A program made the translations under genes and the position numbers. DNA of 32,556 nucleotides from Candidatus Krumholzibacteriota bacterium (GTDB taxonomy: Bacteria; Krumholzibacteriota; Krumholzibacteriia; JAJRXK01): the NCBI GenBank assembly GCA_024276305.1, contig JAJRXK010000086.1, positions 1 through 32,556 on the forward strand. The letters are read 5' to 3'. The notes under the pieces were generated by a model, which saw only the letters and a list, made by a program, of their open reading frames with translations, had not been told where the DNA came from and did no database searches. Below are positions 4,877 through 12,068 of this stretch, piece by piece. How positions within the stretch are numbered: position 1 is the stretch's first letter; each line of letters opens with the position of its first letter.

Positions 4877-4906
4877 TTGACAATCAGGACCCGTAGGGAA
4901 TACACT
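4877..4906 (+). promoter_or_regulatory. Sigma-70-type promoter
   Basis: TTGACA (4877-4882), an 18-base spacer, and TACACT (4901-4906). The -35 box is a perfect consensus. Transcription should begin near 4913, giving a leader of about 38 bases before the GTG at 4951. The -10 box overlaps the TTG at 4906, which argues against that longer start. Confidence 0.7.
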
Positions 4907-4950
4907 TGGGAGGTTGTTTTCGCCTTTCAAGTCGATCCAGGAGGACCTCC

Positions 4951-6096
4951 GTGAAAAGACTGCTCTTGCTGACGCTCCTGGCTAGCGTCACGCTCTTCTC
5001 CGCCAGCGCCCAGGCGACCATCGACTGGGCTGGAAACGCATTCCCGAACAACGGGCATGTCACCACTCCCACCGGCGACCAGTTCGTCGTGGCCGAAGTC
5101 TTCAAGGCCGGCGTCACCGACACCACCGGCCAAGGTGCTGGAATCAGCGCCGTCATCCAGTACCAGACCGACTTGATGGGTACGCCCGCCACCGTCGCAA
5201 TGAACTACAACGTGGACAAGGGCAACAACGACGAATACCTGGGCAACATTCCCCAGGCCGCACTCTCGGGTGCCTCTTACGTCGATGTTACCGTCCTGTT
5301 CACCGATGCGACCGATGGCTCGGTCTTCGAGATCACCGGAGACCAAGTCGGCAATCCGCCATTGCTGCGCTACACCATCAGCAACGTGCTTCCGAACGAC
5401 GTGGCCGTCACCTTTACTCTGTGCATGAGTGGAATCGCCACCAACGGTGCACCCTGCGTCATCGGAAGTGCTCCGGAGATCGGCAGCTGGGGCACCGGCG
5501 TGACCATGACCAACGTGAGCGGCGACCTCTGGGATGTCACGGTAGTGTTTCTGGCCGGGTCCAATCCTTCCTTCGAGTACAAGTACAAGAAGGATGGCTG
5601 TGCGACCTGGGAAGGAACCGCCAATCGTGCGGTGGTCCTGCCCACGGATGGCACTACTTCTCTCACTCTGGCCACCGATAGCTGGGAGTTCAATCCCATC
5701 GGCTGCGGCCTCGGTTCCGCTCTGAATGCGGACGTGCAGATCTGCTTCAAGATCTGTATGGCAGGAGTCGTGACCACCGGCGACGTTTGCGTCATCGGGA
5801 GCATTCCCGAACTCACCACCTGGTCGGCCGGCGTTCCGCTGGTGAACACCAGTGGCGAGATCTGGGAAGGTTGCATCACCATTCCTGCGGGGACTCCCAT
5901 CCCGCTCAACGTGGAATACAAGTACAAGAAGGATGGCTGCGCGACCTGGGAGAGCGTCGGCAACCGCATCGTGACCGTCGACAACAGCTCTCCGGCCACT
6001 CAGACCCTGTCCGACACCTGGGACAATGGGCCGGGCGTGTGTCTGCCGGTCGCGGTCGAGCAGGAGAACTTCGGGACGGTGAAGGCTCGGTACTAG
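4951..6096 (+). CDS. Secreted protein with two CBM20-like modules
   Basis: The start is GTG 4951. It has AGGAGG at 4939-4944 (6-base gap), lies downstream of a good promoter, and immediately gives a signal peptide (KRLLLLTLLASVTLFSASAQA). The 381-residue protein has an unassigned ~120-residue N-domain and two modules (~149-250 and ~259-372). These match the CBM20 pattern: CVIGSAPEIGSWGTGV ... EYKYKKDGCATWEGTANR, and CVIGSIPELTTWSAGV ... EYKYKKDGCATWESVGNR. Both modules carry matched cysteines (CMSG...C, then KKDGC), suggesting disulfides in an exported protein. There is no catalytic domain and no FlgD-like sorting domain. The chain ends in the short tail EQENFGTVKARY. By family knowledge such modules bind starch or glycogen; an extracellular glucan-binding role is inferred. 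A terminator-like hairpin follows. Confidence 0.88.
   Translation: MKRLLLLTLLASVTLFSASAQATIDWAGNAFPNNGHVTTPTGDQFVVAEVFKAGVTDTTGQGAGISAVIQYQTDLMGTPATVAMNYNVDKGNNDEYLGNIPQAALSGASYVDVTVLFTDATDGSVFEITGDQVGNPPLLRYTISNVLPNDVAVTFTLCMSGIATNGAPCVIGSAPEIGSWGTGVTMTNVSGDLWDVTVVFLAGSNPSFEYKYKKDGCATWEGTANRAVVLPTDGTTSLTLATDSWEFNPIGCGLGSALNADVQICFKICMAGVVTTGDVCVIGSIPELTTWSAGVPLVNTSGEIWEGCITIPAGTPIPLNVEYKYKKDGCATWESVGNRIVTVDNSSPATQTLSDTWDNGPGVCLPVAVEQENFGTVKARY
5578..5951 (+). repeat. Direct repeat from tandem CBM20-like modules
   Basis: The 35 bases at 5578-5612 recur at 5917-5951 with one mismatch (T5601/C5940), a period of 339 bases or 113 codons. They encode the YKYKKDGCATW segment of both modules. The near identity, including third codon positions, points to a fairly recent duplication or gene conversion within the gene. 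Confidence 0.85.
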
Positions 6097-6253: not shown

Positions 6254-8218
6254 ATGAACCACTTCGACGACCAAACTCCTTTCAGCGGTGAGTCCCTGGA
6301 CTTCCAGGAGATGAGTCGCGACGAGCTCCAGTCCAAGCTCTTCGAGCTCCTCACTCTCGTCGAAACCAGTCGCGAATTGCTCCGCGCCCGGGACGCGGAC
6401 GATGTGGCGCGCCGGGTTCTGCTCTCCTCGATCGGAGTTCTCGGCGCCGGATCTGCCTGTGTCCTTCTCCGCGATCCCGAGACCCAGACCCTCCAGGTCG
6501 TCTACGAGCTCGGCCTCGAGCGGCGGCCAGACCTGCACATTCCCATTCCCGAATCCATCGTCGCCGCCTTCACCCGGGAGAGTTCACGCCGACCCTTTCG
6601 TTCGAGAGATCCTCGCAACAGCGGGGCTGCGGCGGCATTCCTCCACGATCTCGGCCCCCAACTCGAAGAGCTCGATCCCGATCTGATCTGTCCCCTGAGT
6701 GGAGGATCTGGGTTGCTGGGCTCTCTCATCCTGGGCCGGCGCCTCTTGGCCGAGGGATATACCTCGAGCGATCTGGATCTCTTCTCCAGCCTGGCCGAGC
6801 TCTACGTCCTGGCCCTCGAGCGCGCCCCCGGATCTCCGCACACCGCGCCGGTCGGCGGCGCCCCCAGTCCTCGTCACGAACGACGCTCCGGAGACAACGA
6901 GTCCCTCACCAGCCTCCGTCGCGAGTATCCGGCGCTGCGAGAGATCCTCGGAGAGAGCGAGGCGATGCAGCGATTTTTCGAAGACCTCGTCGATTTCGCG
7001 GACAGTCGCGCGACCCTACTCATCCAGGGGGAGAGCGGTACTGGCAAGGAACTCGTGGCCAAGGCCATCCACGAGGTGAGCCGGCGACGCAACGGTCCCC
7101 TCGAGATCGTGGATTGCTCCTCGATTCCCAAGGAACTCATCGAGAGCGAGCTCTTCGGACACGTTCGGGGTGCATTCACCGGAGCCGTTCGCGACCGCCG
7201 CGGCGCCTTCGACCTCGCGCACAAGGGGACCATTCTCCTCGACGAAATCGGCGACATGACCCTCGGCTCGCAGACGCGGCTCTTACGAGTTCTCCAAGAA
7301 GGCAAGATCCGTCCGGTGGGAGGCGAGAAGAACCACTCCGTCGACGTTCGAGTGATCGCGGCCACCAATGTCGATCTCCGCGAAGCGGTACGCCAAGGGC
7401 GCTTCCGCAAGGATCTCTTCTACCGCATTCAGGTCTTCCCGCTTCGCCTCCCCCCTCTTCGGGAGCGGCGGGGAGATGTCGAAGTACTTCTGCGGGCCTT
7501 TCTGGATCGCTTCTCGGCGGACGACGGCCGGCCTGCGCCGTCGATCGAACAGGCGGTCGTGGACCGGCTGAACGTCCACTCCTTTCCTGGCAATGTCCGC
7601 GAACTGCAGAATATCGCGGAGGCCCTGGCCATCCGGAGCCGAGGGGCCGGCCAGGTCACCCTCGATCATCTCGAGGACATCTTTCGCAGCATGCAGGTCG
7701 ATTCATCGGCCGACCTCGAAGCACCGTCCGAAGTCCGCTTCTCTCCTCACCCCTTGGTTCCCATTGCCGAGGAAACGCGGCCCTTGGCGGCGGGCCCGGG
7801 GCCCGACTCCACTCCTCTCTCCATTGGAGCCTTCGTACTCTCGGCGTGGGTCGATGCGGCATTCAATCTGCTCGAGGCCAGCCGCCGAGCCCATGCCCGC
7901 CGGCTCGAGGGCGACCGCGTTCCCATTGCCGACCGAGCCCAGATGAGCCACTACCTCGATGGAGAGCTATTGCGCCTCTTCCTGGACCATGGCGACGCGG
8001 ACCGGGCTCTAGCGCCGATCGTGGGAGGCCATCCTCTGCGGCATCGGGCCCGTCGACGCTTGGGTCGACTGATCGCCAAACTCGCCGACGCCGACCCGCA
8101 GGCACCTCTGGCCCACCACTTCCCCCGAATGCCCGAGGAGTATGTGGCGGTTCTGGAACCCCTGCTCCGCCGCGACCGCGACTGGCTCCAGGCCCAGGCC
8201 GAGGCCATCACTCACTGA
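6254..8218 (+). CDS. Sigma-54-dependent transcriptional activator with GAF sensor
   Basis: 654 residues. An N-terminal GAF-like sensor (~35-190) replaces the receiver domain of NtrC-type proteins. The AAA+ domain (~228-460) is intact: Walker A GESGTGKE (259-266), the sigma-54-contacting GAFTGA loop (306-311), Walker B LLDE (D330, E331), and FYRIQVFPLRLPPLRERRGD. It should hydrolyse ATP to open RNA polymerase-sigma-54 promoters in response to a ligand or signal sensed by the GAF domain. The C-terminus is unusual: no clear Fis-type helix-turn-helix is visible. A degenerate candidate lies around 574-605 (LFLDHGDADRALAPIVGG ... LGRLIAKL) within an unusually long ~190-residue tail. The ATG at 6254 has GAGG at 6246-6249. 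The gene is monocistronic between hairpins at 6124 and 8239. A near-consensus sigma-54 promoter lies 400 bases downstream on the other strand. Confidence 0.93.
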   Translation: MNHFDDQTPFSGESLDFQEMSRDELQSKLFELLTLVETSRELLRARDADDVARRVLLSSIGVLGAGSACVLLRDPETQTLQVVYELGLERRPDLHIPIPESIVAAFTRESSRRPFRSRDPRNSGAAAAFLHDLGPQLEELDPDLICPLSGGSGLLGSLILGRRLLAEGYTSSDLDLFSSLAELYVLALERAPGSPHTAPVGGAPSPRHERRSGDNESLTSLRREYPALREILGESEAMQRFFEDLVDFADSRATLLIQGESGTGKELVAKAIHEVSRRRNGPLEIVDCSSIPKELIESELFGHVRGAFTGAVRDRRGAFDLAHKGTILLDEIGDMTLGSQTRLLRVLQEGKIRPVGGEKNHSVDVRVIAATNVDLREAVRQGRFRKDLFYRIQVFPLRLPPLRERRGDVEVLLRAFLDRFSADDGRPAPSIEQAVVDRLNVHSFPGNVRELQNIAEALAIRSRGAGQVTLDHLEDIFRSMQVDSSADLEAPSEVRFSPHPLVPIAEETRPLAAGPGPDSTPLSIGAFVLSAWVDAAFNLLEASRRAHARRLEGDRVPIADRAQMSHYLDGELLRLFLDHGDADRALAPIVGGHPLRHRARRRLGRLIAKLADADPQAPLAHHFPRMPEEYVAVLEPLLRRDRDWLQAQAEAITH

Positions 8219-8238
8219 ATCCCATGCGGACACAGAAA

Positions 8239-8269
8239 CGGGGCGTCCCTCTCGCCAAAGGACGCCCCG
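8239..8269 (+). terminator. Terminator hairpin after sigma-54 activator gene
   Basis: CGGGGCGTCC (8239-8248) pairs perfectly with GGACGCCCCG (8260-8269) around an 11-base loop, 20 bases after the activator stop. It could also stop the leftward transcript expected from the - strand sigma-54 promoter. Confidence 0.65.
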
Positions 8270-8340
8270 CCGGTCCTGATCGCCGCGGCTCGCCGACCGC
8301 AGTGCTGAAGGGCCTCTCGCCCAGACCCCTCAACTGGCCA

Positions 8341-8583
8341 TCAGTGTGGGTTTCTCGACTCCGAGCGGAGTCGGTGAGGAGTTCGCCATCTCCCCGAAAC
8401 CCTCAGAATCTCCTGGGCTGCCTCAACGCCGGTCTTCCGAAATGGCGCAGACCGAATGTGGGTCCAGTGGGGTGGCCTCGACTCGGCGTCGCCTTGCCTT
8501 TTGACTCCCCAGGAGATCCGCCCGTCCGCTCCCGAGAGGGGGCGTTCGAGCTCTGCATCGGGTCCCAAATGATTACGACTCAT
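8341..8583 (-). CDS. Possible 80-residue ORF downstream of sigma-54 promoter
   Basis: ATG (8583) lies about 18 bases downstream of the start point expected from the sigma-54 promoter at 8611-8626 and opens a frame of 80 codons ending in TGA. The product is basic (MSRNHLGPDAELERPLSG at the N-terminus; KTGVEAAQEILRVSGRWRT near the end). I do not recognise it. There is no strong ribosome binding site, only GAGGGG about 17 bases upstream. It may equally be a chance frame inside a noncoding transcript. Confidence 0.25.
   Translation of the reverse strand: MSRNHLGPDAELERPLSGADGRISWGVKRQGDAESRPPHWTHIRSAPFRKTGVEAAQEILRVSGRWRTPHRLRSESRNPH
8356..8373. repeat. Palindrome CGACTCCG-AG-CGGAGTCG
   Basis: 8-bp perfect arms around AG. 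It falls near the end of the transcript expected from the leftward sigma-54 promoter and could be part of a terminator or an RNA hairpin. Confidence 0.5.
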
Positions 8584-8610
8584 GGTCGGAACCCGAACTG
8601 TCCCCTCTAA

Positions 8611-8626
8611 CGCAATGGCGGTGCCA
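8611..8626 (-). promoter_or_regulatory. Sigma-54 (-24/-12) promoter
   Basis: On the - strand the sequence reads TGGCAC-CGCCA-TTGCG. It matches the RpoN consensus TGGCACG-N4-TTGCW, with the invariant GG and GC exactly 10 bases apart. It points leftward, with a start expected near 8600, into a region with no established gene. The only sigma-54 activator gene seen in the window is its convergent neighbour. Confidence 0.65.
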
Positions 8627-8639
8627 GAGTTCCCAACCT

Positions 8640-8790
8640 TCCCCACAAAACGCATAAACAATTGCAATATAGTTTGTTACTCATCATGCGGCGAAGACCA
8701 GGATCCTAGATTTGTGGTGTGTCCTCCCTCACAACTACATTTTTTGTGGTTGCTATTGTAGTCACACCACAGAAAAGTGTTGTGCGGGCT
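8640..8790. other. AT-rich island with nested inverted repeats
   Basis: Base composition drops sharply from the GC-rich surroundings. An outer 9-bp perfect inverted repeat, TGTGGTGTG (8713-8721) / CACACCACA (8763-8771), encloses a second perfect one, ACTACA (8734-8739) / TGTAGT (8757-8762). The two stems abut on the right and are separated by 12 bases on the left. The loop contains TTTTTT. It could be a regulatory RNA, a terminator region for the leftward flavin reductase gene, or a remnant of transferred DNA. No transposase is present. Confidence 0.5.
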
Positions 8791-8820: not shown

Positions 8821-9309
8821 TCAATAGCTCAATCCATCGCTGCGAGTGTGCACCGCCGGCGCATCGTCCCGACCGGCCCGCGCCGCGACCACCTCGCCCA
8901 CCACGATGCAGTGGTCCCCGACCTCCATCGATCCGATCCGCCGACACTCCATCCAGGCCAGAGCACCCCGGACCACGGGCAGTCCGGAGGCGCTCCGCTC
9001 GATGTCGTGCCCCTCCAGAGCGTCGACCGCGACCTCGACCCCCTTGTAGTAAGGCCCGAGCTGTTGGCGCTCTGCGGCAGCGATGACACTCACCGCGAAG
9101 CGAGCATCGGGAGCGTCCATCATGGAGCGGATGGCCCGATCCCGACCCAGCCCCACACTCAGGGCCGGCGGTGTGAATCCTGCCTGCATCACCCAGCTCG
9201 CGAGGAAAGCGCCCTCGCGACCCGCATCGTCCCGAGCACTCACGATGAACAGTCCCGAGGGAATGCGCCCGAGAGCTTGGGCCACGGCGGCCCGTCTCTC
9301 ATCATCCAT
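8821..9309 (-). CDS. Flavin reductase-like FMN-binding protein
   Basis: 162 residues, the full length of a single-domain flavin reductase-like split-barrel protein. Typical features are visible: LGRIPSGLFIVSARD near the N-terminus, FLASWVMQAGFTPPALSVGL (where family members contact FMN), FAVSVIAAAERQQ, ALAWMECRR, and the GDHCIVVGEVVAA strand. Family members bind FMN and reduce it or other substrates with NAD(P)H, often supplying reduced flavin to a monooxygenase. No monooxygenase partner is adjacent, so the physiological role is open. ATG at 9309 has GAGG 5 bases upstream in GTGAGGAAGGC. It follows the metalloprotease gene by 38 bases on the same strand and may be co-transcribed with it. Confidence 0.85.
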   Translation of the reverse strand: MDDERRAAVAQALGRIPSGLFIVSARDDAGREGAFLASWVMQAGFTPPALSVGLGRDRAIRSMMDAPDARFAVSVIAAAERQQLGPYYKGVEVAVDALEGHDIERSASGLPVVRGALAWMECRRIGSMEVGDHCIVVGEVVAARAGRDDAPAVHTRSDGLSY

Positions 9310-11298: not shown

Positions 11299-11823
11299 CT
11301 AGCTCGTCACCAATTGATCGAGGACTCCGAAGACCATCTGAGCCGCCTGCAGCGGGAAGAGATCGCGGCGCAACTCCCCGCTGGCCTGACCCCGAGCCAC
11401 GATGTCGGCGACCCGGTCGAGGTAGTCCCGGAAGATCTTTCGGCTCACATCTCCCAGGAAATGAGGGCTGTGCCGGAGATCCACCTGAAAGACCGTGGCC
11501 AGATCCCGATCTTCCCCCATATAGCTCAAATGGAGCTCTACGAAACGCCCCAACTGCTCGGCCGCCGAAGACGCCTCGAGCACATAGGCCTCCCCCCGGT
11601 CCCAGAAGGAATCCAGGGCCTGACGCAGGACCTGCGCCAAGAGGTCGTCCTTGCCTTCGAAATAGAGGTAGATCGTGCCGTCGGCGACTCCGGCGGCCTT
11701 GGCGATGTCACTCACCCGGGTCCGATAGAATCCCCGGGCCGCGAAGGCCCGGATGGCGCCTTCGAGAATCTGACGGCGCCTCAGATCGGCTCGACTGCTC
11801 TCGCCCCGGGATTTCGAGTTCAT
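11299..11823 (-). CDS. TetR-family regulator of fatty-acid degradation (FadR-like), probably truncated
   Basis: 174 residues up to an in-frame TAG. The N-terminal TetR helix-turn-helix is complete: RRRQILEGAIRAFAARGFYR, VSDIAKAAGVADGTIYLYFE and the GKDDLLAQVL that follows. The ligand domain contains HLSYMGEDRDLATVFQVDLR and the late helix QAAQMVFGVLDQLVTS, as in acyl-CoA-responsive FadR-type members. The gene is divergent from a beta-oxidation operon with a 20-bp palindrome between them, so it very probably represses that operon and itself. ATG 11823 has AGGG 8 bases upstream. A -10-like CATAAT (11893-11888) overlaps the palindrome. The reading frame continues convincingly past the TAG, so this copy is either a nonsense mutant lacking the last helix or a sequencing error. 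Confidence 0.85.
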   Translation of the reverse strand: MNSKSRGESSRADLRRRQILEGAIRAFAARGFYRTRVSDIAKAAGVADGTIYLYFEGKDDLLAQVLRQALDSFWDRGEAYVLEASSAAEQLGRFVELHLSYMGEDRDLATVFQVDLRHSPHFLGDVSRKIFRDYLDRVADIVARGQASGELRRDLFPLQAAQMVFGVLDQLVTS

Positions 11824-11888
11824 GAGACACGCCCTGGAATGCGGCTGATCGAAGGGGATGCAAGGAATTTGACTTGCGTCCTCTCACA

Positions 11889-11908
11889 TTATGAATGATC
11901 ATTCATAA
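11889..11908. promoter_or_regulatory. Palindromic operator between fadR-like gene and fad operon
   Basis: TTATGAATGATCATTCATAA is a perfect 20-bp palindrome. Its half-sites TGAATGA/TCATTCA are the same as those of the Bacillus FadR box but lack that box's 4-base centre. It covers the -10 of the regulator (CATAAT on the - strand) and lies just downstream of a TTGACT (11869-11874) facing the fad operon. It is well placed to repress both directions. Confidence 0.8.
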
Positions 11909-12068
11909 AATGAAAGCCGAAAATGAGTGTGGAGGCTCTCCGGCCCGCGCTCCACCTCGGCCGTGTCTGCAAGAATTGCCCCATATTCCCATTCTTGGGC
12001 CAGTTCTTGCGAAGGATCCTCCTCTCGAGATGGAGATTCTCGAGCCTACCCCTCCGCGGGAGTTGAAC

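Follow-up and report, generated by a model that had tools for sequence, protein, structure and literature searches.

Sigma-54-dependent RNA genes are known that lie beside or near the gene of a sigma-54 activator (bEBP). In Vibrio, the regulatory RNA gene qrr1 adjoins luxO, the gene of its bEBP, and has sites for the activator upstream of it (PMC8043402); in Enterobacteria, the glmY-qseE-qseG-qseF locus encodes a small RNA whose sigma-54 promoter is activated, at upstream sites, by a bEBP of the same locus (PMC8745638, PMC6075780); and in Pseudomonas the sigma-54-dependent RNA CrcZ adjoins the bEBP gene cbrB (locus from PMC8871633).

We analyzed a stretch of 32,556 nucleotides from a Candidatus Krumholzibacteriota bacterium (hereafter the window), in which the sequence at 8611-8626 very probably serves as promoter for a structured noncoding RNA of about 370 nt that depends on sigma-54 and is under the control of the adjoining activator. 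This confidence covers the RNA and its control, and not the mechanism (sponge or pairing) by which the RNA would act. The promoter, the RNA structure, the repetition of its loops, their conservation, and the linkage to the activator are established by computation, and the best reading, drawn by analogy, is that the RNA represents a new family served by a promoter-beside-activator design that is already known.

The sigma-54 site, the neighboring activator, and the upstream region

The minus strand at 8626-8611 reads TGGCACCGCCATTGCG, with the exact GG-N10-GC spacing of a −24/−12 promoter, confirming the RpoN promoter reported in a preliminary description of this DNA. That description considered the motif rare by chance, which is an overstatement when used as the only evidence: across the 3.5-Mb genome there are 11 exact copies vs. 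8 of the pattern reversed as a control, and the window has no excess of near-matches (29 vs. 22 ± 5). The motif alone is therefore weak proof, and we dropped its frequency as evidence for a promoter; it is the comparison across genomes that makes the site convincing. We compared four genomes, termed family f1, comprising the source genome (G000), one of the same genus (G001), and two of other genera (G002 and G003). All four have a −24/−12 site at the equivalent place, matching 9-10 of 10 consensus bases, ∼340-400 nt from a shared 3′ hairpin and on the strand that makes them converge with the gene of the orthologous activator; in G001-G003 the sites, upstream of that hairpin and on the same strand, read TGGCATTGTGGTTGC, TGGCACCTCCAGTGC, and TGGCACCCGTATTGC. 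The GG and GC elements are thus kept beside the orthologous activator in 4/4 genomes, and the probability that an equally good site arises within 150 nt in shuffles is <0.0005, 0.001, 0.008, and <0.0005 for the four. One gene in the source genome encodes RpoN.

The neighboring gene (6254-8218, plus strand) is a sigma-54 activator, as the preliminary description held, encoding a GAF domain followed by an AAA+ domain (Pfam Sigma54_activat, E 2e-66) with an intact GAFTGA motif and by an orphan C-terminal domain of 135 aa (7811-8215, plus strand), which is predicted to be all-helical (pLDDT 93.5). Orthologs share 56-63% identity within f1 and 38-40% with a second family, f2, of two genomes; the closest named full-length relative is from a Candidatus Krumholzibacteriota MAG (OFTM315, L034). 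The C-terminal domain has no match in Pfam and none in the PDB by fold (best E 0.96) or by sequence (best E 0.12), and the Pfam and PDB fold searches found no recognized DNA-binding fold in it. Its profile matches exactly 6 of 80 phylum genomes, namely the four f1 and the two f2 genomes. Directly upstream of the activator, at 4906-6096 (plus strand), lies a gene whose product has two CBM20 (starch-binding) stretches.

A probable enhancer (upstream activating) region occupies 8714-8784 (minus strand), 90-160 bp upstream of the −24 element, where enhancer sites for sigma-54 activators are usually located. It contains CACAAC/GTTGTG and GTGGTG/CACCAC words, which form an imperfect inverted repeat and lie at −158, −144, −109, and −93 in the window. 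The best CACAACA-N5-TGTTGTG in the window, at 8730-8748, has two mismatches, a level of match reached by three sites genome-wide, and the same-genus genome G001 has only two perfect copies in 4.6 Mb, both just upstream of the promoter. CACAAC/GTTGTG words are found at −90 to −160 of the f1 promoters, often as inverted repeats; their enrichment reaches significance in G000, G001, and G003 but not in G002 (P 0.35). Judging from sequence, the CACAACA/TGTTGTG repeats are probable candidate enhancer sites, to which the adjoining activator would bind. The promoter had been called an orphan, a label that is wrong, since its partner RNA is conserved and it has probable enhancer sites.

The gene on the other side of the RNA varies. 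A conserved DUF6055/FlgD_ig-type gene is directly next in G001 and G003, and a CoA-binding-like protein, identified by reading the sequence, is encoded there in f2. Only in the source genome does a flavin reductase gene (8821-9309, minus strand) stand between the control region and the DUF6055/FlgD_ig-type gene; it is absent from the corresponding place in G001 and G003.

A predicted structured RNA and its spread across genomes

Leftward sigma-54-dependent transcription would run from ∼8600 to ∼8235 and yield a predicted structured noncoding RNA of about 370 nt (8233-8601, minus strand), with its start placed ∼11 nt past the GC element. From start to hairpin, the fold z in the source genome is −6.1 to −6.65 on the minus strand vs. 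−1.2 on the plus strand, and without the hairpin region −3.3 vs. −0.7; background windows of 370 nt in the first part of the contig have a mean z of −0.8 (sd 1.3). The RNA strands of G001, G002, and G003 give −5.1, −3.2, and −6.5, and predicted f1 RNA lengths are 341-399 nt. Two other 370-nt segments of the window, 11656-12025 and 5551-5920 (both plus strand), reached a z of about −5.4 with only 20 shuffles, and in G003 (L031), unlike the other genomes, the opposite strand is equally stable (z −6.9).

All four f1 species have three domains in common, preceded on their 5′ side by a core with an invariant GGCAAGGC and CCCCA. In the window the core domain (8408-8517, minus strand) is closed by AUCUCCUGGG/CCCAGGAGAU and holds GGCAAGGCRGCG (8486-8499) and CCCCAC (8467-8473), both of them conserved. 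Domain A (8348-8402, minus strand) consists of a closing stem, a GGCGA-loop hairpin, and a second hairpin, with pairing and compensatory changes in the four genomes; domain B (8276-8344, minus strand) follows the same plan, its second hairpin being also GGCGA-looped in this species. Domain C (8239-8269, minus strand) is a terminator-like 3′ hairpin with a UUGGCGAGAG loop, and it was the only part matched in other family genomes (84-97% identity) when the intergenic region was used in a DNA search. Of 39 pairs in helix arms chosen partly by hand, 18 have undergone compensatory changes, and across the four f1 genomes 155 of the 156 cells remain paired. RNAalifold unaided predicts 35 pairs, 11 with changes on both sides, and both sets of counts come from four close sequences with kinship ignored; for the 5′ half of the RNA, the MAFFT alignment was too gappy for RNAalifold to be used. 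Furthermore, each RNA has 4-5 GGCGA-type hairpin loops against 0.08-0.21 in shuffles. The eight inspected of the 13 genomic copies of TTGGCGAGAG are not hairpin loops, giving no sign of mRNA targets with the same hairpin. Rfam covariance models gave no match at the gathering score and only chance-level matches (E 1-10) at a relaxed threshold, excluding Qrr, GlmY, CrcZ, CsrB, 6S, and other Rfam families.

The hairpin at 8239-8269 had been taken for the activator's terminator. Nothing in the sequence indicates this, and the T-rich tail is on the minus strand: TTTCTG in G000, CTTCTTTTT in G002, TTTTTTTT in G003, and TGTTTTTTT in G004, with the T-tract missing or weak in G001 and G008. Where present, the tail lies 3′ of the hairpin on the RNA strand, so the hairpin would end the leftward RNA.

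When the phylum genomes were searched with a covariance model of domains A-C, each of the four from f1 gave one strong copy and none of the remaining 76 gave a convincing one. Matches outside f1 with E 9e-4 to 0.75 (L126-L134) were rejected after partial inspection, as they resemble unrelated terminators or coding DNA. In both f2 genomes a GG-N10-GC site stands in the equivalent position and orientation, together with a structured region of 230-240 nt that has diverged (z −3.0 and −2.4) and a GC-rich 3′ hairpin. Their promoters are weak, with 8 and 7 of 10 consensus bases (shuffle P 0.05 and 0.51), but by sequence reading each is followed, after 12-14 nt, by the first block that the RNAs share. 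The layout of promoter, RNA, and hairpin beside the activator is thus found in the same six genomes that carry its C-terminal domain. Together, the domain profile and the f2 layout show that the activator is accompanied by an RNA with this layout in 6/6 genomes, all of which keep the convergent arrangement. The two f2 RNAs (L014 and L015) are identical over an unbroken stretch of 30 nt, GGGCTGCTGGGTAGCACGCGAGCTGCCGAG, and carry C-rich CUCCCC hairpin loops that might pair with Shine-Dalgarno sequences.

Proposed action and rival explanations

We propose that the GAF domain would sense a signal, upon which the activator, probably via its C-terminal domain, would bind the CACAACA/TGTTGTG repeats 90-160 bp upstream and open the RpoN polymerase complex at 8611-8626. 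The leftward RNA would then be made, end at the hairpin at 8239-8269, and presumably act in trans, since there is nothing downstream to control in cis. In the mechanism we prefer, the repeated GGCGA-loop hairpins may act by titrating an RNA-binding protein, or target mRNAs may base-pair with the loops and with the C-rich CCCCA element; we put this forward tentatively, and which protein would be titrated or which mRNAs paired is a guess. A bolder version, which we consider rather unlikely, is that the RNA founds a new class of sponges whose GGCGA loops sequester an RNA-binding protein, forming a dedicated module with an activator whose C-terminal domain recognizes only this locus or even binds this very RNA.

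The preliminary description had allowed for a regulated small RNA, a small peptide, or a transcript antisense to the 3′ end of the activator. The first option is well supported, with promoter, structure, and 3′ hairpin conserved wherever the orthologous activator occurs; the other two fare poorly. That the RNA is a local antisense or collision partner, damping the activator through its 3′ end as negative feedback, would suit the convergent arrangement in 6/6 genomes and an RNA end only ∼20 nt from the activator stop codon. The RNA stops short of that codon, however, leaving little or no overlap with the activator coding sequence, and it conserves paired structure, not complementarity, so antisense action is unlikely to be its main function; collision feedback, moreover, would need neither 370 nt of conserved structure nor repeated loops, and we consider this explanation improbable. 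A small protein is the least credible product of the site. The 80-codon ATG frame downstream does exist (8583-8341), and either it or a longer variant could be the product, but its conservation did not hold up: in relatives, similarity is limited to short fragments of 19 residues or fewer, which leaves the peptide unsupported, there is no conserved frame or Pfam match, and the sequence changes keep RNA pairing instead.

It is nearly as implausible that the site is a chance sigma-54-like sequence, with structure incidental to GC-rich DNA between convergent genes. The lack of genome-wide enrichment of the motif would agree with such an origin; against it, the promoter, 3′ hairpin, compensated helices, and repeated loops are conserved across genera whose activators are only 56-63% identical. 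A CsrB/RsmZ-type sponge for CsrA has a small chance of being correct, slightly below that of the antisense explanation, as the RNA has multiple hairpins with repeated loops and CsrA is encoded in 5/6 genomes. However, the repeated loop is GGCGA and not GGA, which occurs in one hairpin loop only of the f1 RNAs, and G002 has the RNA yet CsrA was not found there.

Comparison with described RNAs

CsrB and RsmZ are sponge RNAs with many hairpins presenting one repeated loop motif, and CrcZ has repeated protein-binding motifs. With CsrB/RsmZ the RNA described here shares the multi-hairpin form with a repeated loop, the motif being GGCGA here and GGA in theirs. With cbrB-crcZ it has in common a predicted sigma-54 dependence and the adjoining bEBP gene; the sponge function is CrcZ's and is only proposed here. 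CrcZ sequesters Crc/Hfq, whereas the repeated element of this RNA is a GGCGA hairpin loop, and the hallmarks of CrcZ are missing, with no AANAAYAA motif in the RNA and Hfq not found in any of the six genomes (6/6). Neither of the best-known sponge partners thus fits well, given the failure to find Hfq in the six genomes or CsrA in G002, and loops that are not GGA.

The resemblance to the RNAs encoded near their activators lies in the design of the locus. Like qrr1-luxO, the locus pairs an RNA, here predicted to be sigma-54-dependent, with an adjoining bEBP gene and upstream sites, which are candidate sites here; qrr1 is divergent from luxO, whereas this RNA is convergent, about 370 nt long, and multi-domain, and it has no match to the Qrr family of Rfam and no Hfq found alongside it. 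With glmY-qseF it shares a small RNA with a sigma-54 promoter and a bEBP gene in one locus, but glmY precedes the regulator genes and shares their strand, and the RNA here has a different structure and no Rfam match. Of the features that mark an RNA beside its own bEBP, the locus has a −24/−12 promoter, conserved in 4/4 f1 genomes and weak but positioned in the two of f2, and an adjoining activator that carries GAFTGA, with an rpoN gene present in the genome; the upstream sites are candidates.

If this reading is correct, the locus adds an RNA family that is new, along with a repeated loop motif that is also new, in a phylum for which a check of six genomes turned up no Hfq, and the RNA is a concrete, testable candidate whose GGCGA loop could serve as a bait sequence for an RNA-binding partner. 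It would also place the design of a bEBP beside its own sigma-54-dependent RNA in an uncultured phylum, the examples we found (qrr1, glmY, and crcZ) all being from gammaproteobacteria.
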